Part shown: positions 4,990 to 30,473 of the stretch, piece after piece
Layout: each line of letters begins with the position of its first letter
How positions within the stretch are numbered: position 1 is the first letter of the stretch
Source of the DNA: Oscillatoria salina IIICB1
Lineage (GTDB): Bacteria > Cyanobacteriota > Cyanobacteriia > Cyanobacteriales > SIO1D9
DNA: 54,973 nucleotides
Assembly (NCBI RefSeq): GCF_020144665.1
Contig: NZ_JAAHBQ010000050.1
Coordinates: 1-54,973, forward strand
Reading direction: 5' to 3'
Notes under the pieces: generated by a model
What the model saw: the letters and a program-made list of their open reading frames with translations, nothing else
Databases searched by the model: none
What the model was told of the DNA's origin: nothing
Made by a program: the position numbers and the translations under genes

Positions 4990-6384
4990 TTACTCAGCGA
5001 TCGCCACAGAAACGATTCCTCGATTTTCTAGCACCGAGGCTACTCGTAAAATCAAAGCTTCGTTATAAGGTGCAGCAATAATTTGCACCCCCAACGGCAG
5101 GTTATTCGCACAACGCACCGGAACCGATAAAACAGGTAAACCAACAAAGGAAAGAGGTTGAGTAAAACGCCCTAAATTAGGACGGACGAGAATTTCTTCG
5201 CCAGCAATAACCATCTTTTCTTGTCCCAAAGGTGGAGCCGCGCAGGGAGTCGTAGGTGCGAGAATAATATCTACCTTTTGGAAAATTTCCCGCAGACGCG
5301 ACCGATACCAATTACGAAAACGTTGAGATTGAACGTACCAAGTAGCAGGAATCATCGCACCTGCAATAAAGCGATCGCGTGTCGCCGGATCGAAATCACT
5401 AGGGCGATTTCGCAAGTTATTTAAATGCAAATTCGCTCCTTCTACCGCCGTAATCAGGTAAGCGGCGGCTCTCGCACGATGAGATTCTGGTAAATTAATC
5501 CGACTTTTTGCCCCTAAAGTCGCCGCAACTTGTTCAACTGCCTCCCAAGCTTCCGGTTCGATCCCTTCAGTAAAATACCCATCTGCGACAGCAATCCGCA
5601 ATCCTTTAATCCCAAAATCTAATTGAGGTAAACAAGGTTCGGGAGGATGGCGAGAGACAATCGGATCGCGATTATCTTCCCCTTGCAGAAAATCAAAAGT
5701 TGTCGCAATATCTCTTACTGAACGAGCAAACGAACCAATATGGTCTAAACTACTGGAAAACAACACCGTACCTGCCCGCGAAAGACGACCATAAGTGGGT
5801 TTAAAGCCATAAACACCACAAAGTGCCGCCGGAACGCGAATCGAGCCATTCGTATCTGAACCCAAAGTTAACGGTACTAAGCCTGCGGCTACGGCTGCGG
5901 CTGAACCACCAGAGGAACCGCCTGCAATTCGTGTCGCATCGTGAGGGTTAGGAGTAGCACCATAATGGCTATTTTCCGTCACAAAGCCATAAGCATACTC
6001 ATCCATATTCAAAGTACCGATCAGCACTGCCCCCGCCCGCTTCAAACGAGCAACAGCAGTAGCATCCATTGTCGCCGGAGAATTTTCTGCATTGATTTTT
6101 GAGCCAGCAAGAGTGGTTAAACCAGCAACATCGAAGAGATTTTTCACTGCAAAAGGAACCCCAGCCAACGAACCAGGGTAATTACCTTGGGCAAGTGCCC
6201 GATCGATTTTCTCAGCATCAGCGATCGCTTGTTCGGGAAGAGTTGCTGTGAAGCAGTTCATCGCTTCATTTTTGGCAGCAATTCTCTCTAAGGTAGCGCC
6301 AACTACGTTTCTGGCAGTAATTTTCCGACTGCGAATCGCCATCGCGATCGATACAGCATCGGCTGAAAGTAAGTCCAAGTTCAT
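4990..6384 (-). CDS. atzE: AtzE-family amidase (amidase signature enzyme)
   Basis: A 464-residue amidase-signature hydrolase most like the AtzE/1-carboxybiuret hydrolase group. The Ser-cisSer-Lys triad is in place: Lys81 (GVPFAVKN), cis-Ser157 (GGSSGGS) and nucleophile Ser181 (GSDTNGSIR). The N-terminal helix DAVSIAMAIRSRKITARNV and the C-terminal LPVLSVPV / LPLGVQIIA segments are as expected. In Pseudomonas ADP, AtzE needs the small subunit AtzG. A gene matching AtzG is in this window at 24199-24387, 18 kb away, instead of adjacent. The enzyme probably hydrolyses a carboxybiuret-like or other small amide in nitrogen salvage, but the true substrate is uncertain. The gene stands alone and is divergent from lepB. 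Confidence 0.88.
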   Translation of the reverse strand: MNLDLLSADAVSIAMAIRSRKITARNVVGATLERIAAKNEAMNCFTATLPEQAIADAEKIDRALAQGNYPGSLAGVPFAVKNLFDVAGLTTLAGSKINAENSPATMDATAVARLKRAGAVLIGTLNMDEYAYGFVTENSHYGATPNPHDATRIAGGSSGGSAAAVAAGLVPLTLGSDTNGSIRVPAALCGVYGFKPTYGRLSRAGTVLFSSSLDHIGSFARSVRDIATTFDFLQGEDNRDPIVSRHPPEPCLPQLDFGIKGLRIAVADGYFTEGIEPEAWEAVEQVAATLGAKSRINLPESHRARAAAYLITAVEGANLHLNNLRNRPSDFDPATRDRFIAGAMIPATWYVQSQRFRNWYRSRLREIFQKVDIILAPTTPCAAPPLGQEKMVIAGEEILVRPNLGRFTQPLSFVGLPVLSVPVRCANNLPLGVQIIAAPYNEALILRVASVLENRGIVSVAIAE

Positions 6385-6718
6385 AACGCAATTTTTTTCT
6401 TCAATCTAGATGAGAGTAGTTGCGATCTCAGGCGCAGGTAAGAATTTTTTCGGGGACTTTATTTATTTAATCCGCCATTTGTTGTAGTTGGGCAAAGATT
6501 TCCATCGACCTGTTTTTAGGATGATACTCACCGATTTTAACCTTTCCTGGTTGTAAACGCCGTCGATTCGCTTTTCCGTTAATTTTTTCTGGTGCTCAAC
6601 TCTCGCCGAACTCCTGTCGAAGTGGTGCAACTTTGCCCTTGAAGGGCAAGGTTTGACCACACCATTTTTTGATAATGTACAGAAGTTGCACGCAAAGTCT
6701 CTACCGCGAAGAAATTTT
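6385..6718. other. Divergent intergenic region with 17-bp palindrome
   Basis: 334 bp between the amidase (-) and signal peptidase (+) genes with no supported gene. A minus-strand frame spanning 6463-6807 has no family resemblance and overlaps lepB. The region holds a perfect inverted repeat, TTGCCCTT-G-AAGGGCAA (6633-6649), whose core recurs at 9263-9275. Promoters for both flanking genes must lie here, but none stands out. Confidence 0.5.
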
Positions 6719-7357
6719 ATGGCATCTAAGGAAAAAGATTTAGCCTCAACTTCTAGCTCTACTTCTGTTCCAGAAAAACCACAACAGCGAGAAAATGTCA
6801 ATGACACTGAGGTAAATAAGAGTAAATCGAAATTAACTAAGCAAATTTGGGAAAATGTCCAAGTTATCGCGATCGCGTTGAGTTTAGCCTTATTAATTCG
6901 TTTTTTTGTCGCTGAACCACGCTATATTCCTTCTGATTCGATGCTACCAACTTTGGCGATCGGCGATCGCTTGGTGGTCGAAAAAGTCTCCTACTATTTT
7001 CACCCACCTCACCGAGGCGATATCATTGTCTTTGAGCCGCCTCAGCAGTTAATTGTCCAAGGCTATGAACAAGACCAAGCTTTTATCAAACGGGTAATTG
7101 GCGAACCCGGTCATACTGTAGAAGTCCGAGATGGGATCGTTTATCTCGACGATCTTCCTCTCCAAGAAGATTACATCGCTGAACCTCCACGTTATCAATT
7201 AGAAAAAATCTCTGTGCCTCCTGGCAACCTTTTTGTTATGGGAGACAATCGTAATAATAGCAATGATTCTCATGTTTGGGGCTTCCTCCCCCAAAATAAT
7301 CTTATCGGTCGCGCAATTTTCCGCTTTTTCCCCTTCTCTCGCATTGGTGGGGTTTAA
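6719..7357 (+). CDS. lepB: Signal peptidase I
   Basis: Membrane serine/lysine endopeptidase that removes signal peptides of Sec and Tat exported proteins. From the ATG at 6719 it is 212 residues. There is a polar cytoplasmic N-terminus rich in Ser and Lys, one transmembrane helix (about 46-64), then box B PSDSMLPTL with nucleophile Ser74, box D KRVIG with general-base Lys124, and box E MGDNRNNSNDS (174-184). The TTG at 6653 would add 22 residues before a sequence that already makes a natural start, so it is not preferred. The stop codon runs directly into a heptamer repeat array. Confidence 0.95.
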   Translation: MASKEKDLASTSSSTSVPEKPQQRENVNDTEVNKSKSKLTKQIWENVQVIAIALSLALLIRFFVAEPRYIPSDSMLPTLAIGDRLVVEKVSYYFHPPHRGDIIVFEPPQQLIVQGYEQDQAFIKRVIGEPGHTVEVRDGIVYLDDLPLQEDYIAEPPRYQLEKISVPPGNLFVMGDNRNNSNDSHVWGFLPQNNLIGRAIFRFFPFSRIGGV

Positions 7358-7358
7358 C

Positions 7359-7545
7359 AGTGAACAGTTAACTGTTAACAGTGACCAGTTAACAGTTAAC
7401 TGTTATCTTATCAGTTTGTCTCTTCCCAGTCCCCAGTCTCCAGTCCCCAGTCTCCAGTCCCCAATCACCAGTCCCCAGTCCCCAGTCCCCAGTCCCCAGT
7501 CCCCAATCCCCAGTCCCCAGTCCCCAGTCCCCAGTCCCCAATCCC
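7359..7545. repeat. STRR-type heptamer array between lepB and the HhH gene
   Basis: The first part (7359-7405) is built of CAGTGAACAGTTAACTGTTAA-like units containing short palindromes. From about 7427 it becomes a near-perfect tandem of CCCCAGT/CCCCAAT heptamers. This is the STRR class described in filamentous cyanobacteria. The array starts two bases after the lepB stop. At its right edge it supplies the CTA that, read on the minus strand, is the TAG stop of the helix-hairpin-helix gene (7546-7548). Confidence 0.92.
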
Positions 7546-8097
7546 CTAAAACTGCAAATAGTGCATTAAATGGGAAATCAACTGACTGCTGAGGGAAAGA
7601 CGATGCTGTAAATCAGCCAAATTGCGGTAATTACCGTGAGCGAGACGATTTTCGACAATAATTTGTGCGATCGCTGGTTCGATAACTGGGATTTTTGCTA
7701 ATTCTTCTACCGAAGCTGTATTCGGATTAAACCTTTTTGGGGTTGACAAACCATCTATATTATAGTAAGCAAAATAGAGAATTGGTTCTAAAGGTTGAAG
7801 ACGAAGAGGAGGGATACTCAGAGCAGCAGCCAAATCTTCAATACAGAGAAACTGGACGCCCAAACCTGAAAGTTCAACCAGCGATCGCGCTTGACGAATA
7901 GAAATTCCCGGTAGCCGCAGCCAATCATCAACACCAGCTTGATTGACATCAATTTTAATCCCCAACTCCGCCGCCACCGCCACTTCCGCCATCGATTGGA
8001 AGCGATAATAAGGATCGTTAGCGATCCGAGCGCGAATCGCCAACCGTTGCGGATTAATTTGCTGACCTTTAGCAGCCAACCAATCAGAAAGACCCAT
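7546..8097 (-). CDS. Helix-hairpin-helix (ComEA-like) protein
   Basis: A 183-residue protein with two helix-hairpin-helix units of the ComEA type. The first is [17 protein letters not shown] with the following helix (about 50-76), and the second [19 protein letters not shown] with its continuation to about 165. The 'VN.A....L..LPGI' and 'NPNTAS.EEL..IP.I' patterns are non-specific DNA-binding hairpins. No signal peptide is visible, so unlike ComEA it appears cytoplasmic. It lies 5 bp after the TM2/SHOCT gene on the same strand, which suggests an operon. Its stop codon lies in an STRR array. Confidence 0.82.
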
Positions 8098-8102
8098 AAA
8101 AA

Positions 8103-8510
8103 CTAAGCAATACGGTCGAGTAACTGACGACGCTTTTGTTCAAACTCATACTCAGACATTAGCCCTTCCTGACGCAAGCGGTCTAACTCCCGAAGAGAAT
8201 CAGCGATCGCGCTCACTTGATAAGGGTCAACCGAAACCGAAGCCAAATCGCCTCCTGACGACATCGATAGCAAACCCACATTAAACCTACGATTAAACTC
8301 TTCGCCATCCTGCGCTAAATACCACACAGCTTCAATTGCACAAGCAATCCGAGGAATTGGCGTAGCCCACAAAAGTAAATACACCAGACCCCAAAGAGGC
8401 TGACCGAGATAAAGCTTGTGTAATCCCGCCAAAGGCGTTACCGTTCCCACCAAAGCAAGAATTATTGCTACTCTCCGACTTTTCGGCTTGTTGAAAAGGT
8501 TATCAATCAC
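8103..8510 (-). CDS. TM2-like membrane protein with C-terminal SHOCT motif
   Basis: A 135-residue protein. Two hydrophobic helices (about 13-30 and 34-60) follow a basic N-terminus, with GLHKLYLGQPLWGLVYLL typical of TM2/NINE proteins. The last 35 residues, ending with LDRLRQEGLMSEYEFEQKRR, form a SHOCT-type short helical module (LxxLxxxGxISExEFExKK). SHOCT modules are usually oligomerisation elements at the ends of membrane proteins. It is the first gene of a likely two-gene operon with the helix-hairpin-helix gene. Function unknown. Confidence 0.85.
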   Translation of the reverse strand: MIDNLFNKPKSRRVAIILALVGTVTPLAGLHKLYLGQPLWGLVYLLLWATPIPRIACAIEAVWYLAQDGEEFNRRFNVGLLSMSSGGDLASVSVDPYQVSAIADSLRELDRLRQEGLMSEYEFEQKRRQLLDRIA

Positions 8511-8642
8511 CGGGACTAAAGGTGCTATAACACCACCAAAACAACAGTTTCTTTCTTTCTTTATGATATTGACTTACTTCGAGCAAGGGAATTTTTTCTC
8601 CACTGTTGACATCCTCTTTTTTAATCCTAAAGCGCAAACACC

Positions 8643-8731
8643 TTGACTTCCCGATACGGAAAACCGTATTTTACGGCAACTTTCGACTACTCTAGAATGA
8701 GATCGAGTGTTTCCGTGGTAGGTGGATAGTC
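8643..8731 (+). promoter_or_regulatory. Putative promoter and operator-like hairpin for the DUF1825 gene
   Basis: An inverted repeat ATACGG-AAAA-CCGTAT (8654-8669) is followed by a possible -35 (TTACGG, 8671-8676) and a good -10 (TAGAAT, 8693-8698) with a 16-bp spacer, 33 bp before the ATG of the DUF1825 gene. The inverted repeat abuts the -35 and could be an operator. Confidence 0.35.
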
Positions 8732-9055
8732 ATGGGATTTTTTGACTCGGAAGTAGTTCAGCAAGAAGCCAAGCAATTATTTGAAGATTATCAATCCCTT
8801 ATGAAACTAGGGGGCGATTACGGCAAATTCGATCGCGAAGGAAAAAAAATTTACATCCAGCAAATGGAAGAAATGATGGAGCGCTACCGCATTTTTATGA
8901 AGCGGTTCGAGCTTTCAGATGATTTTATGGCACAAATGACCGTACAACAACTTAAAACTCAACTAAGTCAATTTGGCATTACTCCTCAGCAAATGTTCGC
9001 TCAAATGAATATAACCTTAGAGCGTATGAAAGCTGAATTAGAAAAGCAAAATTAA
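8732..9055 (+). CDS. DUF1825 family protein
   Basis: A 107-residue conserved cyanobacterial protein beginning MGFFDSEVVQQEAKQLFEDY. It is almost entirely charged helix with a Met-rich centre (QQMEEMMERYRIFMKRF) and a C-terminal segment where ITPQQMFAQMN precedes a last helix. No transmembrane segment, signal peptide or catalytic motif is visible. It is full length for the family. The family is widespread in cyanobacteria and its role is not established from sequence. It stands alone. Confidence 0.92.
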   Translation: MGFFDSEVVQQEAKQLFEDYQSLMKLGGDYGKFDREGKKIYIQQMEEMMERYRIFMKRFELSDDFMAQMTVQQLKTQLSQFGITPQQMFAQMNITLERMKAELEKQN

Positions 9056-9390
9056 AATATTGGCGATCGCGGATTGGCGACTAGGCACTGGGAAGACTTG
9101 GACGGATTAGTAAACAACCTCGCCGATTAGGGTCGAGGCTTTCAGTAACCCTGAAGTTATCGCACAAGACAACAACTGCGAGCATCCAGGCTGGTTGAAA
9201 GAGCAGCCCCAAAGCCCAATTACTAATATCGAACCCCTTATTTTCAACTCCTATCCCTCTCCGCCCTTGAAGGGCAAGGCTTCTCGGAGCTTTTTAGTGA
9301 ATAAACTAATTCATGCGCCTACGTGCTAACTAATAACGAACATCATTGGTCGCCAGCGACCAATGACCGACGACCAATCAAAGCTAAGTT
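9056..9390. other. Convergent intergenic region with two hairpins
   Basis: 335 bp between DUF1825 (+) and the penicillin-binding protein gene (-) with no supported ORF. At 9259-9297 CTCCG and CGGAG enclose a GCCCTT-G-AAGGGC inner hairpin and are followed by CTTTTTAG, a plausible factor-independent terminator for the plus strand. At 9343-9366 a perfect 10-bp stem, TCATTGGTCG-CCAG-CGACCAATGA, lies just past the stop of the minus-strand gene. The 200 bp before the first hairpin could be a 3' UTR or an independent small RNA. Nothing known was recognised. Confidence 0.45.
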
Positions 9391-11310
9391 TTAGGGACGA
9401 GGGAACTTAGAAGGAGAAGGGAAGTATTTGACAGGTTCATTTTTGAGCGCCTCACTCATAAATTGCCGCCAGATGGGAGCCGCGTGTCCGCCACCAGTCA
9501 CCCCAGCACCTAAAGGTCTGTAATTATCATTACCGATCCAAACTGCCGTAGAAAGCTGGGGAACGTAACCTACAAACCAAACATCACGCTCAGAAGAAGT
9601 AGTACCTGTTTTACCAGCAGCCGGACGACCAATATTGGCATTTTTACCTGTACCGCCAGCAATTACTCCTTTTAAAACCGTAGTTAGAGAAGCAGTAGCC
9701 CAAGGATCTAAAACCAATTTAGGTCTAGGGGTATTGTCAAGCAAAATATTGCCGTTACTGTCAGTGACGCGCACGATCACTGTAGGATCGGAATGCCAGC
9801 CATTGCTAGCAAAAGTAGCATAAGATCCCGCCATTTCTAGAGGAGTTACACCAATAGCACCCAAAGGTAAAGAAACCACAGGTTCCAGAGGACTCTTAAT
9901 GCCTAAAATTCGACAAACTTCGATAACTTTATCAAGTCCCACAGCCCTACCAATTTTCACAGCCGGAACGTTACGAGATTGAATTAAAGCAGTGCTGATA
10001 CTCATCGGTCCTGCGTAACCACCACCATAGTTTTTCGGACTGTAGTAACCAGAACCATCGCGATAGCTAACCGGAGTATCGTTGACTGTCGAATAAGGGC
10101 TATATTTACCGGAAGCAAAAGCAGCATAATAAACAAAAGATTTAAAAGCAGATCCCGGTTGACGACGAGACTGTACCGCGCGGTTAAACTGACTTTTTTC
10201 GTAATCTACCCCACCAACAAGAGCTTTGACAAAGTGAGTGCGCGGATCGACAGCTACTAACGCTACTTGGTCAGCATAAACACCGTAGCGACGTAGATTG
10301 CGGTGTCCTCGCTGGACAATTTCTTCCGCCTTCTGTTGAAAATAATAATCTACCGTAGTTTGGACGCGCATACCACCTTTGAGTACCGCATCGCGTCCGA
10401 AGCGATCGTTTAATTCGGAAATAACTGCTTCGGTAATGTAAGGCAGTTTACTGGTGCGCCATGCGGTCGGTTTACCTACTAATAGAGGTGCTTCGCGGGC
10501 GGTTTTCGCTTCCTCTGAGTTAATCCAACCTAACTCTTCCATCCGGCTCAGAACCACTGCCTGTCGCCGTTTAGTTTCGTCGTAGTTAATAAAAGGACTA
10601 TAATCTTCTGGAGCTTGAATTAACCCAGCCATCATCGCGGCTTCTGGTAGGGTAAGTTCCGAAGCCGGTTTGTTAAAGTAACTTTCCGCAGCAGTTTGAA
10701 CGCCGTAGTTGTTATGACCCCAATAGATACTATTGAGGTACATTTCCAGAATTTCATCTTTATTAAAAATTTGCTCGACTCGAATTGCTAAGACTGCTTC
10801 AGCGAGTTTACGGCTAACAGTGCGATCGCGAGAGAGGAAGAGATTTTTTACTAACTGCATGGTGATTGTTGAGCCACCTTCAACCACTGAACCTTGTTTC
10901 CAGTTAGCCACGAAAGCACGCCCAATACTATTGGGGTTAATACCTTCATGAAGATAAAAGTGGCTATCTTCGATCGCTAGGACTGCTCGCTTTAGTTCTG
11001 GAGAAACTTCGTCAAGTTTAACTACTTTACGATTAGCTTCACCGTGCAAACTGGCAAGAGGTCTACCTTTGATGTCATAAACATAAGTAGTTTCCGTGGG
11101 AGCATAACCCCGCAGCACTCTGACATCGGGAAGGTTGCGAAAGCTAACCGCTAAACCGACCAGTCCTCCAGCTACAACCGAACTGGTTAGCATGGTAATA
11201 CCTAGAATTGTGCCACCTGTTGCTTTGGCAACTCCTTTGGCAAAATTTATAGCTGGTGCAGTTGTAGCTTGCTTATTTTCTGTTTTTTGTCTAATGGTGC
11301 TAGTGGACAC
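9391..11310 (-). CDS. Class A penicillin-binding protein (PBP1a-like)
   Basis: Bifunctional peptidoglycan synthase of 639 residues. After a cytoplasmic tail and a transmembrane helix (about 33-56) comes the GT51 glycosyltransferase domain. It shows the catalytic Glu114 in EDSHFYLHEG, then EGGSTITMQLVKNLF and the RKLAEAVLAIRVEQ region. The transpeptidase domain has Ser387 in PGSAFK, the SRN triad at 445-447 and KTGT at 567-570, so all penicillin-binding motifs are intact. It links lipid II into strands and crosslinks the stem peptides on the outer face of the plasma membrane. It is transcribed alone, divergently from tyrS. There is no extra C-terminal domain. Confidence 0.96.
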   Translation of the reverse strand: MSTSTIRQKTENKQATTAPAINFAKGVAKATGGTILGITMLTSSVVAGGLVGLAVSFRNLPDVRVLRGYAPTETTYVYDIKGRPLASLHGEANRKVVKLDEVSPELKRAVLAIEDSHFYLHEGINPNSIGRAFVANWKQGSVVEGGSTITMQLVKNLFLSRDRTVSRKLAEAVLAIRVEQIFNKDEILEMYLNSIYWGHNNYGVQTAAESYFNKPASELTLPEAAMMAGLIQAPEDYSPFINYDETKRRQAVVLSRMEELGWINSEEAKTAREAPLLVGKPTAWRTSKLPYITEAVISELNDRFGRDAVLKGGMRVQTTVDYYFQQKAEEIVQRGHRNLRRYGVYADQVALVAVDPRTHFVKALVGGVDYEKSQFNRAVQSRRQPGSAFKSFVYYAAFASGKYSPYSTVNDTPVSYRDGSGYYSPKNYGGGYAGPMSISTALIQSRNVPAVKIGRAVGLDKVIEVCRILGIKSPLEPVVSLPLGAIGVTPLEMAGSYATFASNGWHSDPTVIVRVTDSNGNILLDNTPRPKLVLDPWATASLTTVLKGVIAGGTGKNANIGRPAAGKTGTTSSERDVWFVGYVPQLSTAVWIGNDNYRPLGAGVTGGGHAAPIWRQFMSEALKNEPVKYFPSPSKFPRP

Positions 11311-26445: not shown

Positions 26446-29400
26446 ATGCTTGAAAGTGCAGGAATGCTAATCGAAATCAATAAAATGTTTTTTTGGATCG
26501 CCCAATTTGGCGAACCCGTATTGGACGATCCTGAAGATGCATCATTAGTCTTTTCCGGACCGCAATTTTGGATTGCAGTAATTGCTGGAGTAGTACTAGC
26601 ATTTGCTTTCCAATTACTCTTAACAAATCTTGGCGTAGCTACAGGAATTTCGCTAGCAGGAAATTCTTCAGATTCCCATAGTCATAGTCATAATTCATCA
26701 GAGAGCGTTGGGGGTACAATTCGCAAAATCAGTGTTGCTCTCGGATTAGCTACCTTAATTACAGTGACGATCGCACTTTTTTGTGCGACAATTTTGGCAG
26801 TTAAGTTGAGTTTGCTAGAAAGTGCAGGCTTAGGTGCGATCCTGGGTTTGGTAATCTGGGCAGCATATTTTTGCATCTTGTTTTGGGTAAGCTCAACCAC
26901 GGTAGGCTCATTAGTGGGTTCGGTCGTAAACACCGCTACATCAGGCTTTCAAGCATTACTCGGAACCGCTACCGCCGCGATTGGAGGTAAAGCCGCTTCC
27001 GATCGCGTAGTTGCAACCGCAGAAGCAGCAGCAAGTGCAGTACGTCGAGAAATAGGTGCAGCGATCGATCCCGAATCAATTCGCGAGAATTTAGAAGATT
27101 ATCTAGGCGGTTTGCGTCCACCGCAACTAAACTTAAAAGGAGTCAAAAACGACATCGAAGCGATCCTGCATGACTCAGATTTAGAACAACTGGCTGGTAG
27201 TGATGCTCTCAGTAAAGTCAATCGCCAAACCTTTGTCAACTTAATCAGCGATCGCAGCGACTTATCCAAGCGCGAAGTAGAACAACTTGCTAACGAACTA
27301 GAATCAGTTTGGAATCGAAGCGTCAAGAGACTTCCATCAAAAAATCGCCTCGAAGAATTCGTCGATTACGTCAAATCAGCCGCACCCGATTCTTTACTCG
27401 GACCCGAATTTAACTCAAAACTCGACGACCTAATTGAAGAATTGCGTAAACGACGCAAAGCTCAAAGTACAACACCGATGCAACAAGCAATGACCCTCAG
27501 CTTTAACAGTTTAATCGGTTTAGTGATGGGTCGAAGCGACTTATCAGACATGAGTGTCGAAAAAATAATCGATCGCTTGCAAACCGCTAAAGATAAATTT
27601 GGCGAACAAACCGAGCAAGTTAAGTCCCAAATTCAAGGTAAACCAGTGAAGTCGATGGCATACAAAACTATTAAAGCCGACATCGACAATTATCTGCTCA
27701 ATACCTACTCTTGGCAAATGACTCAACCGAAAATCGAAACCGAATTTCGGGAAATCATTTACGATCCAGAGGCAGATCCAGAAACCGTTGCGGAAGCCTT
27801 AACCCACTTCGATCGCACCTATTTTGCTAATTTACTGCAACAGCGAGGCGTATTTACCCAAGAACGAATCGACGAAATTGCTAATATTTTAGAAACAGTT
27901 CGCTTAGAAGCGATCGCCACAGCCAACGCAGCCGCCGAACGCCAAATTGCACTCTCATTAATGGCAGAAGTCGAAGACTATGTAATTAATACTCCCAAAG
28001 CAGAACTATCTCCCGCCAAAATTGAACTTGACTTCAAGGCGATGATGTCCGACGCTGATGCCGAATACAAACAATTACAATCTCGTTTGGAGCAATTTGA
28101 CCAACCTACCTTCGAGCGGATGTTACGCCAGCGAGAAGATCTTAACTCCTCAGAAGCACAAAAAATCAATCTCTGGCTGTTAGAAGCACGCAACCGCGTC
28201 CTCAGCGATGCTAAAGGAACCAGCGAACCAGTTCATCTCAAAGCCCAAATCGAACAATTTCTGCTCGATACCGATTACAGTAAAATGAATCGGCAAACCT
28301 TAGAGCAACAATTCCGCAACCTAATTTTCGATCCTGATGCTGACCAAGGTCGTCTCGCTGATGCTTTAATGCAAATTCGCCACGATTATTTTGTCCGCTT
28401 GCTGCAAAAACGAGGCGTATTCACTCAAGAACAAATTAACCAACTTGCTGACATTTTAGAAGCAATTCGTGCTGAGGTTGCGCGTCAAGCCCAACAAGCC
28501 AAATACGAGCGGGCAGCAACTGCTGTGCGCGAAGAGCTAGAAAAATATTTGCTCACTAGCGATCGAGAAGAGTTAACACCCGAAAAAATTCAACTCGACT
28601 CGCGAGCAATTTTCGCAGACTCCGAAGCCGATTATCATGAGTTAAATGCTCGTCTAGCTCAATTTGACCGCTACACCTTCGATACGATCTTAAATCGGCG
28701 CTCAGATTTATCAGCCGAAGACAAAACCGAAATTGCGAGCGAGTTAGAAAAAGCCAGAACTCGCATTTTAGACGAATCTCGCGAACTCACCGAAGCAGCA
28801 AAAGCCAAAGCCGAAGCCCAATGGCTAAAAGTCGCTTCTTATCTGCGAGATACAGGTAAAGAAGAACTCAATCCCCAAGGTATTAAACGAGACTTACAAA
28901 CATTGTTAGACAACCCCCAAGCAGGAGTTGCCGCTTTGCGGGCGAGGACTGCTCGTTTCGATCGCGATACCTTGGTAAAATTACTCTCTCAGCGTCAAGA
29001 ATTCAGCGAAGAGCAAGTTAACCAAATTATCGACCAAGTGGAAGATAATTGGCACGGTGTAACCCACGCTCCCCAAAAAGCGGCGGGTAAAGTCAAAGAA
29101 GAATACGACCATGTAACGAGTGCGATCGCCGATTATTTACGTTCTACAGGTAAGGAAGAACTCAATCCTGAAGGTATTAAACGCGATTTGCAAGTTTTGT
29201 TCTCTGACCCGAAAATGGGAGCTAGAGCAATGCGACAGCGCTTGTCACAGATGGATCGCGATACGTTAGTACAGCTTCTCGCTCAACGTCAAGATTTAAG
29301 CGAAGCACAAGTCAATCAAATTATTGACGAAGTACAGGCAAATATTCGTAATTTTGTCAAAGCTCCGCGTCGTATAGCTAGTCGCGCCAAAGGACAAGTG

Positions 29401-30129
29401 TTAGACTTTGAGGCTAGTTTAGAAGATTATTTGCGTTCTACCGACAAAGAAGAACTCAATCCTGAAAGCATCAAACGCGATTTACAGCAGTTAGTCAACG
29501 ATCCCAGAGTGGGAATGAGTCGAATTAGCGATCGCCTTTCTCAGTTCGATCGTTCTACGATAACTGCTTTACTCGCTCAAAGGGAAGATATCTCCGAACA
29601 AGAAGCCGCCGAAATTAGCGATCGCATCTTCTCGGTTCGCGACCAAATCATGGCACAATGGCAACAAGTCCAAGGTGCAGTCCAACAGGTCATCGATAGT
29701 ATTTTGGGACGTATTCGCAGCTATCTCAACTCCTTAGACCGTCCCGAACTCAACTACGAAGGGATTAAAACAGACGTACAGACAATGTTCGACGACCCCG
29801 AAGCCGGATTTGAAGCTATGCGATCTCGCCTTTCGCAATTTAACCGCGACACCTTAGTAGCGATTTTGAGTTCTCGCGAAGACATCTCCGAAGCCGATGT
29901 TAACCGGATCATCGATCAAATCGAACATACTCGCAACCGCTTGTTACAACGAGCCGAACGCCTGCAATTACAAGCCCAACGACGCTTAGAAGAAGTGAAA
30001 CTAGAAGCCCAGCGACAAGCAGAAGCCACTCGCAAAGCAGCCGCAGCCGCAGCTTGGTGGTTATTTGCTACCGCGTTAATTTCCGGTATCGCTTCCAGTC
30101 TAGGTGGCGCATTAGCCGTCGTAGACTAG
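26446..30129 (+). CDS. Large membrane-anchored protein with about ten ~80-residue helical repeats
   Basis: 1227 residues. The N-terminus has hydrophobic segments at about 41-67, 95-122 and 128-150, with a His/Ser-rich loop (SDSHSHSHNS) after the first. From about residue 216 to 1160 the protein consists of roughly ten degenerate repeats of the pattern DYLxSTxKEELNPExIKRDLQ, a short acidic linker with DP or DxxA, LxxFDRDTLVxLLxQRxDLSExxVNxIIDxxE. Spacer lengths vary, and the three or four copies before the last are the best preserved. A basic coiled coil (RLQLQAQRRLEEVKLEAQRQ) and one C-terminal hydrophobic helix (WWLFATALISGIASSLGGAL) end it. AGAGGGAAG precedes the ATG. Both ends can be membrane-bound with the repeat rod between. 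I recognise no enzyme domain; a structural or scaffolding role is inference. Confidence 0.88.
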   Translation: MLESAGMLIEINKMFFWIAQFGEPVLDDPEDASLVFSGPQFWIAVIAGVVLAFAFQLLLTNLGVATGISLAGNSSDSHSHSHNSSESVGGTIRKISVALGLATLITVTIALFCATILAVKLSLLESAGLGAILGLVIWAAYFCILFWVSSTTVGSLVGSVVNTATSGFQALLGTATAAIGGKAASDRVVATAEAAASAVRREIGAAIDPESIRENLEDYLGGLRPPQLNLKGVKNDIEAILHDSDLEQLAGSDALSKVNRQTFVNLISDRSDLSKREVEQLANELESVWNRSVKRLPSKNRLEEFVDYVKSAAPDSLLGPEFNSKLDDLIEELRKRRKAQSTTPMQQAMTLSFNSLIGLVMGRSDLSDMSVEKIIDRLQTAKDKFGEQTEQVKSQIQGKPVKSMAYKTIKADIDNYLLNTYSWQMTQPKIETEFREIIYDPEADPETVAEALTHFDRTYFANLLQQRGVFTQERIDEIANILETVRLEAIATANAAAERQIALSLMAEVEDYVINTPKAELSPAKIELDFKAMMSDADAEYKQLQSRLEQFDQPTFERMLRQREDLNSSEAQKINLWLLEARNRVLSDAKGTSEPVHLKAQIEQFLLDTDYSKMNRQTLEQQFRNLIFDPDADQGRLADALMQIRHDYFVRLLQKRGVFTQEQINQLADILEAIRAEVARQAQQAKYERAATAVREELEKYLLTSDREELTPEKIQLDSRAIFADSEADYHELNARLAQFDRYTFDTILNRRSDLSAEDKTEIASELEKARTRILDESRELTEAAKAKAEAQWLKVASYLRDTGKEELNPQGIKRDLQTLLDNPQAGVAALRARTARFDRDTLVKLLSQRQEFSEEQVNQIIDQVEDNWHGVTHAPQKAAGKVKEEYDHVTSAIADYLRSTGKEELNPEGIKRDLQVLFSDPKMGARAMRQRLSQMDRDTLVQLLAQRQDLSEAQVNQIIDEVQANIRNFVKAPRRIASRAKGQVLDFEASLEDYLRSTDKEELNPESIKRDLQQLVNDPRVGMSRISDRLSQFDRSTITALLAQREDISEQEAAEISDRIFSVRDQIMAQWQQVQGAVQQVIDSILGRIRSYLNSLDRPELNYEGIKTDVQTMFDDPEAGFEAMRSRLSQFNRDTLVAILSSREDISEADVNRIIDQIEHTRNRLLQRAERLQLQAQRRLEEVKLEAQRQAEATRKAAAAAAWWLFATALISGIASSLGGALAVVD

Positions 30130-30131
30130 GC

Positions 30132-30473
30132 TGGTGATTGGGAACTGGTGATTGGGGACTGGGGACTGGGGACTGGGGACTGGGGACTGGTGATTGGGGA
30201 CTGGTGATTGGGGACTAGGGACTGGGGACTGGGGACTGGGGACAGTTACCAGTGAACAGTTTATCCTCCCTCTTCCTTGTCTCCCATCTCTAGAGATAAC
30301 TGATAACTTACAACTGATAACTGATAACTGTTCACTGTTCACTGAAAACCCTCTCCCTTGTCTCCCATCTCTAGAGATAACTGATAACTTACAACTGATA
30401 ACTGATAACTGTTCACTGTTCACTGAAAACCCCCTCCTCACTGGTAACTGTTAACTGAAAACCCCAATCGAGT
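30132..30473. repeat. Composite STRR array with an 81-bp direct duplication
   Basis: The array begins two bases after the stop codon of the large repeat protein. First come GGGGACT/GGTGATT heptamers (30132-30243), then CAGTTACCAGTGAACAG, a pyrimidine-rich stretch, and an ACTGATAACTTACAACTGATAACTG segment ending in TTCACTG repeats and GAAAACC. The part from CCTTGTCTCCC to GAAAACC is present twice at an exact 81-bp offset (30275-30355 and 30356-30436), almost unchanged. Open frames across it on both strands are translations of the repeat, not genes. Confidence 0.92.

Follow-up and report, generated by a model that had tools for sequence, protein, structure and literature searches.

Comparison with described proteins

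VIPP1/PspA and CurT are known organisers of thylakoids or other membranes, and small proteins annotated as 'PhnA-like protein', 'YrzE family protein', 'CAP-Gly protein' or 'hypothetical protein' are carried on plasmids of Proteobacteria, Bacteroidota and Bacillota; the labels on these small proteins carry no functional information. Here we describe a 1227-residue protein of the cyanobacterium Oscillatoria salina IIICB1, encoded on a 54,973-nt stretch (assembly GCF_020144665.1, contig NZ_JAAHBQ010000050.1, positions 1–54,973, forward strand; this whole stretch is called the window below). We read this protein as a giant member of the small four-helix family whose loop unit has been amplified and which may serve as a stress-linked membrane scaffold, and we put the probability of this reading as a whole at roughly 50%. 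That it is a four-helix membrane protein in which one loop has expanded to about ten helical beads in a row is very probable; the stress-linked scaffold function is a tentative proposal. On this reading a large, conserved and unnamed cyanobacterial protein would take its place in a family with members in Proteobacteria, Bacteroidota and Bacillota.

Like the giant, the plasmid-borne 'PhnA-like', 'YrzE family' and 'CAP-Gly' proteins open with three helices and close with a fourth, with a helical loop in between, and the repeat unit is recognisable in the loop of three of the seven that were aligned (marginally in Roseomonas). They differ in size and unit number, with 303–346 aa and at most one unit, compared with 1227 aa and nine and a half units in the giant. 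The cyanobacterial relatives of the giant and a set of mini proteins have the window protein's N-domain, units and C-terminal helix in common with it, although the giant relatives carry seven full units plus a half and the window protein two more. TIGR04086 and DUF3792 (YrzE) matched the first helices of the Pseudomonas homolog weakly and below their cut-offs (20.8 vs 30 and 19.4 vs 31.3), and neither was listed for the window N-domain up to E = 1.

None of the giant, mini and small proteins scanned passed a Pfam or NCBIfam cut-off, apart from a partial HU-like match of the giant that is weighed below, in agreement with the sequence-only reading, which assigned the protein no function. VIPP1/PspA and CurT were absent from the 15 Pfam and four NCBIfam matches listed up to E = 10, and the other Pfam, NCBIfam and PDB-sequence matches of the giant were judged to be chance. 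Literature searches, judged partly by title, found no paper on the giant or the small four-helix family. Structure prediction, which had been proposed as a check, returned helical beads linked by helices of about 45 residues, with no strands, in both of two AlphaFold models, at low confidence (mean pLDDT 64 and 56). Foldseek found no solved fold at E ≤ 0.001 with either of these low-confidence models, and the best VIA-align 2 Z-scores, 8.3 (condensin) and 5.2, lie within the range that helical models reach by common arrangement.

Layout of the protein and its repeat units

The gene is present as a single copy in the O. salina IIICB1 genome, and a unit profile run against that genome found no second carrier of the unit. 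Hydropathy placed three hydrophobic helices in the N-terminal region (residues 32–71 and 91–161) and one at the C-terminus (residues 1198–1227), and between them lies the repeat chain: nine complete units, each about 80 residues long, and a half unit. The features, all on the forward strand, are as follows.

26446–30129 (+), ORF of the giant four-helix, repeat-loop membrane protein; ATG start, 1227 aa, relatives found
26539–26658 (+), membrane helix 1, hydrophobic stretch, residues 32–71; hydropathy and profile match
26653–26721 (+), loop, residues 70–92; His/Ser-rich in the window protein, Asp/Ser-rich in relatives
26716–26928 (+), membrane helices 2 and 3, hydrophobic stretch, residues 91–161; hydropathy and profile match
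27088–27330 (+), unit 1, residues 215–295; of the ten, the closest match to the single unit of three mini proteins
27466–27609 (+), unit 2, a degenerate half unit, residues 341–388; unit profile, weak in the single-unit test
27679–27921 (+), unit 3, residues 412–492; unit profile
27967–28209 (+), unit 4, residues 508–588; unit profile
28246–28488 (+), unit 5, residues 601–681; with unit 6, a block absent from relatives
28534–28776 (+), unit 6, residues 697–777; with unit 5, a block absent from relatives
28828–29070 (+), unit 7, residues 795–875; unit profile and identity to relatives
29122–29364 (+), unit 8, residues 893–973; holds the best partial HU-like match (residues 936–977)
29416–29658 (+), unit 9, residues 991–1071; unit profile and identity to relatives
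29710–29952 (+), unit 10, residues 1089–1169; unit profile and identity to relatives
30037–30126 (+), membrane helix 4, C-terminal hydrophobic stretch, residues 1198–1227; hydropathy and profile match

A profile built from four late units detected ten units, at residues 216–294, 354–385 (the half unit), 413–486, 509–586, 602–679, 698–775, 795–875, 894–973, 992–1071 and 1089–1169. When one unit served as the query, eight of the others scored 14.5–89.1 bits; of 1000 shuffles of the remaining protein, 778 scored at all and the best whole-sequence score was 8.3. The half unit (unit 2) reached only 1.1 bits and is not significant in that test. From unit 3 onward, unit starts are spaced 93–98 residues apart. 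The 1227-residue ORF, its units of about 80 residues and the hydrophobic helices at both ends were thus recovered as the sequence-only reading had described them, and its 'ten or so' units resolve into nine full units and a half. The His-rich N-terminal loop that it had pointed out is real in the window protein (three His in residues 70–92) and is not conserved, since 13 of 37 aligned rows lack His and the loop is Asp/Ser-rich.

Matches of both ends and the unit to a small four-helix family

Weak, borderline hits pointed to proteins of 230–290 aa that resemble the N-terminal helices of the giant and in which a loop separates three hydrophobic stretches from a fourth one. The mini proteins (371–382 aa) consist of the giant's N-domain, one unit and the giant's C-terminal helix. 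Profiles of the two ends were compared with the small proteins after the minis had been excluded, with 40 column shuffles and the reversed alignment as controls. The giant N-domain matched the seven non-cyanobacterial proteins with a probability of 98.2 and a score of 96.5 (shuffles ≤18.6, reversed 17.7) and the cyanobacterial small family with a probability of 97.2, and the giant C-terminus matched helix 4 of the same seven proteins with a probability of 94.3 and a score of 47.8 (shuffles ≤17.4). The alignment of the minis with the seven spans helix 1 through helix 4 in 258 columns (probability 98.5). Between helices 3 and 4, a profile of 223 units scored 11.8 and 20.7 bits in Pseudomonas, 15.9 in Dyadobacter and 9.3 in Roseomonas, the shuffle maximum being 5.7.

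As judged from these profiles, the order of helices 1–3, unit and helix 4 is found beyond cyanobacteria. Because the N-terminal part, the unit and the C-terminal part match the small proteins in order, the giant would be a small protein whose loop unit has been amplified, to seven full units and a half in cyanobacteria and to nine and a half in this genome. In a membrane-domain tree of 42 rows, giants, minis and two divergent forms separated from the small and non-cyanobacterial proteins with a support of 100/100; long branches meet in that tree, which neither places the minis firmly within the giants nor orders mini and giant.

The small protein was found in 22 of the 60 genomes of the order, every time alongside the giant (a count made without G020, G047 and G055, where the matches fell inside giants). 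The genome that carries the window has its own small four-helix homolog (L178, contig C16, 6606–7250, reverse strand), divergent from a PRC-barrel/DUF2382 gene (7567–8550, forward strand), a pairing that recurs on alphaproteobacterial plasmids. Plasmid-borne relatives of the small family came from Rhizobium, Sinorhizobium, Paracoccus, Azospirillum, Pseudomonas, Serratia, Klebsiella, Enterococcus, Dyadobacter and others, where the Klebsiella and Enterococcus matches take in 66–78% of the query but leave out its last helix. At one locus of an uncultured cyanobacterium (L074), a giant (5980–9099) and a one-unit mini (9208–10353) stand in tandem on the forward strand, the mini downstream.

Spread and unit number of the giants

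Giants were found in 27 of the 60 genomes of the order, three of them as fragments that were kept in the count (G051, 227 aa; G012, 303 aa; G009, broken frames), and in 42 of 291 genomes of the phylum (44 before two weak matches were removed: G174, E 7.6e-5, a 287-aa frame of the small protein, and G221, E 4.6e-4). In G009 (L147, contig C268) the gene is split over several broken frames, as if decayed or badly assembled. A scan of named genomes gave at least 568 relatives, and the best 80 of these were all cyanobacterial by name; the giant was not matched in the viral contigs searched, and as a query it had no match among plasmids. The taxonomic check that had been proposed for the repeat therefore places giants in cyanobacteria and the unit also in small proteins of Pseudomonas, Dyadobacter and, marginally, Roseomonas. 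Two forms are present in several genomes. Two divergent giants of 1052 and 922 aa (L142, 2741–5896, reverse strand; L143, 1712–4477, forward strand) are about 23–24% identical to the window protein, have five detected units each and represent a further subfamily.

In 75 named loci (the 80 minus five whose frame did not match the start motif) the relatives measure about 1024–1067 aa, with one of 990 aa, and overall identity is 48–62%. The unit profile, applied to 93 distinct relatives (95 counted, minus two pairs in which the same gene was present twice), found seven units in 73, eight in 20 and more than eight in none, where the window protein has ten. In the eight-unit relatives the weakest unit lies at about 293–441, where the window protein has its half unit, and in an alignment of 20 relatives all 20 were gapped at the position of the window's two extra units. 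The repeat array is thus old and nearly fixed in length, and has been lengthened only in the window's lineage among the sequences seen.

The added block was taken to be units 5–6, and the choice of these over units 3–4 is arbitrary. The two blocks are identical at only 73 of 186 residues and are therefore probably too diverged to be an assembly artefact. On these alignments the two-unit duplication is lineage-specific, the one such case, and lies among poorly kept copies. The sequence-only reading had taken the better preservation of the later copies as a sign of internal duplication, and the comparison with relatives speaks against this: copies 7–10 share 63–73% identity with their counterparts in 36 relatives, in most cases more than the 43–64% that they share with each other. 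The corresponding values are 46–51% for copies 1, 3 and 4 and 57% for the half copy, and copies 5 and 6 have no counterpart. By this measure the later, better-kept copies are old rather than recent, and the most constrained of the array.

Association with stress genes

Seven of ten fetched regions around small homologs held DUF2382/YsnF-AvaK, DUF892, CsbD, Gls24/AmaP or YqjK/DUF883 genes, all of types assigned to stress responses, and the remaining three had a ferritin-like gene (Rhizobium), YtxH and a diadenylate cyclase (Dyadobacter) or none of these (Pseudomonas); such neighbours are a tendency of the 'PhnA-like' family and not a strict criterion. On the Enterococcus faecalis plasmid pRFP1 (L187), a homolog labelled 'hypothetical protein' sits inside a stress cluster of GlsB, Asp23/Gls24, AmaP and CsbD. 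In alkane-overproducing Nostoc punctiforme, CsbD-family and AvaK-type PRC-barrel genes were upregulated, and the giant is absent from the passages of that paper on upregulated stress genes (PMC7660261).

Of the 60 genomes of the order, 25 carry both giant and DUF2382, two only the giant, two only DUF2382 and 31 neither. When presence was permuted within genome-size classes, none of 20,000 permutations reached 25 co-occurrences (maximum 23). Six families vary, four of them for giant and DUF2382 together and two for the giant alone. Among the 291 genomes of the phylum, DUF2382 is present in 38 of the 42 that bear a giant and occurs alone in 17 (phi 0.75); for NiFe hydrogenase and the giant, phi is 0.25. 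Genome size, lifestyle and descent confound this link, and lifestyle and descent can produce part of it. In genus g47 (family f33), G112, G139, G158, G178, G182, G184 and G269 have DUF2382 and no giant match, and G096 and G106 match both; a recent loss of the giant in the genomes without it is possible.

Topology, membrane side and alternative explanations

Since one four-helix family matches the giant at both ends, its first half at the N-terminal helices and its second at the C-terminal helix, both ends of the chain are expected in the same bilayer; they probably belong to one membrane domain and do not bridge two membranes. Helix 4 would close the bundle of helices 1–3, so that the chain leaves and re-enters one membrane with all beads on one side, where, more speculatively, the beads of a stress-linked protein might form a scaffold or spacer layer on the membrane and bind partner proteins. 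Of the 'membrane rod' of the sequence-only reading, the membrane-anchored helical repeat chain stands, and the spacing or tethering of membranes is disfavoured because the ends match one four-helix family. The idea is thereby recast as testable statements: four membrane helices, one bilayer, a counted loop and a link to stress genes. A fuller version, possible but doubtful, is a molecular hoop: a counted number of helical beads would start from and return to one membrane at the four-helix anchor, probably facing the periplasm or lumen. Such a hoop would have arisen by amplification of the loop unit in an ancient stress-linked membrane protein; selection would act on the number of units, which would determine the height of a protective layer or its valency, and the lineage of the window would have gained two.

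The side on which the beads lie can be approached through charge and cysteine content. In both small families Lys/Arg is concentrated at the N-tail, loop 2 and the C-tail, a pattern that would leave the beads on the non-cytoplasmic side. Beyond residue 170 there is hardly any Cys: the 75 relatives have 13 in 65,316 residues and the window protein 0 in 1057. The window also encodes three other Cys-free proteins (a cytosolic-type AAA/SMC-like protein, an HtrA-like protease and an HlyD protein), and the scarcity of Cys in the beads is therefore only a hint. Together the charge of the small relatives and the near absence of Cys lean towards an extracytoplasmic position, in the periplasm or the thylakoid lumen.

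Several results weigh against the giant as an amplified, stress-linked and extracytoplasmic member of the small family. The reversed control for the C-terminus against non-cyanobacterial helix 4 reached 27.3 (28.5 beside the probability of 94.3), and the C-terminal helix matched the cyanobacterial small family weakly (probability 56.1, and 48 in another comparison). Four of the seven non-cyanobacterial proteins had no listed unit match, and a profile of window units only left the Roseomonas unit marginal (3.9 vs a shuffle maximum of 3.8). Neither of the two low-confidence models shows helix 4 packed on helices 1–3, and the Lys/Arg on the bead-side flank of helix 4 (giant mean 3.00) runs contrary to an extracytoplasmic placement. 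NRPS condensation domains, included to control for genome size and lifestyle, show an association with the giant as well (phi 0.55), and no conserved stress neighbour (CsbD, DUF2382, DUF892 or Gls24) stands beside the giant genes of the window or its relatives.

The alternative that survives best keeps the same four-helix anchor and puts the loop on the opposite side, where it would organise cytoplasmic partners at the thylakoid or plasma membrane. We regard it as unlikely, yet a serious competitor: loop 1 of the giant carries more Lys/Arg than its N-tail (means 2.95 and 0.65), in line with the charge at helix 4, and the giant's own loops are not decisive for the side, whereas the charge distribution of both small families and the scarcity of Cys in the beads (with the caveat of the Cys-free AAA/SMC-like protein) point the other way. 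It is improbable that the protein spaces or tethers two membranes (plasma membrane and thylakoid, for example), its helices 1–3 being anchored in the first and its C-terminal helix in the second. Such a role would suit a long helical repeat chain with hydrophobic helices on both flanks and a near-constant unit number, as a ruler needs, but both end regions match parts of one small four-helix protein, where no more than a short loop or a single unit lies between them, and no sign was found that helix 4 had shifted to another bilayer, as a two-membrane bridge would need.

The second half of a unit resembles the helix-turn-long-helix of HU (PF00216), and Pfam Bac_DNA_binding passed its cut-off in three stretches of the giant (29.2 vs 22.4 bits). 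A membrane-bound nucleic-acid binder acting through HU-like units is nevertheless very improbable, given that the best stretch covers only positions 1–42 of 90, NCBIfam HU_rel stays far under its cut-off (19.2 vs 68.6), the region is membrane-anchored and acidic (102 K+R vs 133 D+E in residues 440–1180) and the models are strand-free. DNA binding as deduced from the Pfam match was rejected for its coverage of 42 of 90 positions.

Genomic surroundings

The neighbours of giant genes are not conserved across 51 loci (two pairs of which are one and the same contig), and a substrate-binding protein and an ATPase lie near the giant in eight or nine of them. In the window the neighbours include a histidine kinase and an Hsp70. 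Immediately 3' of the ORF, positions 30131–30437 hold about 16 copies of the 7-base unit CTGGGGA, followed by two direct copies of 81 bases that match at 97%.

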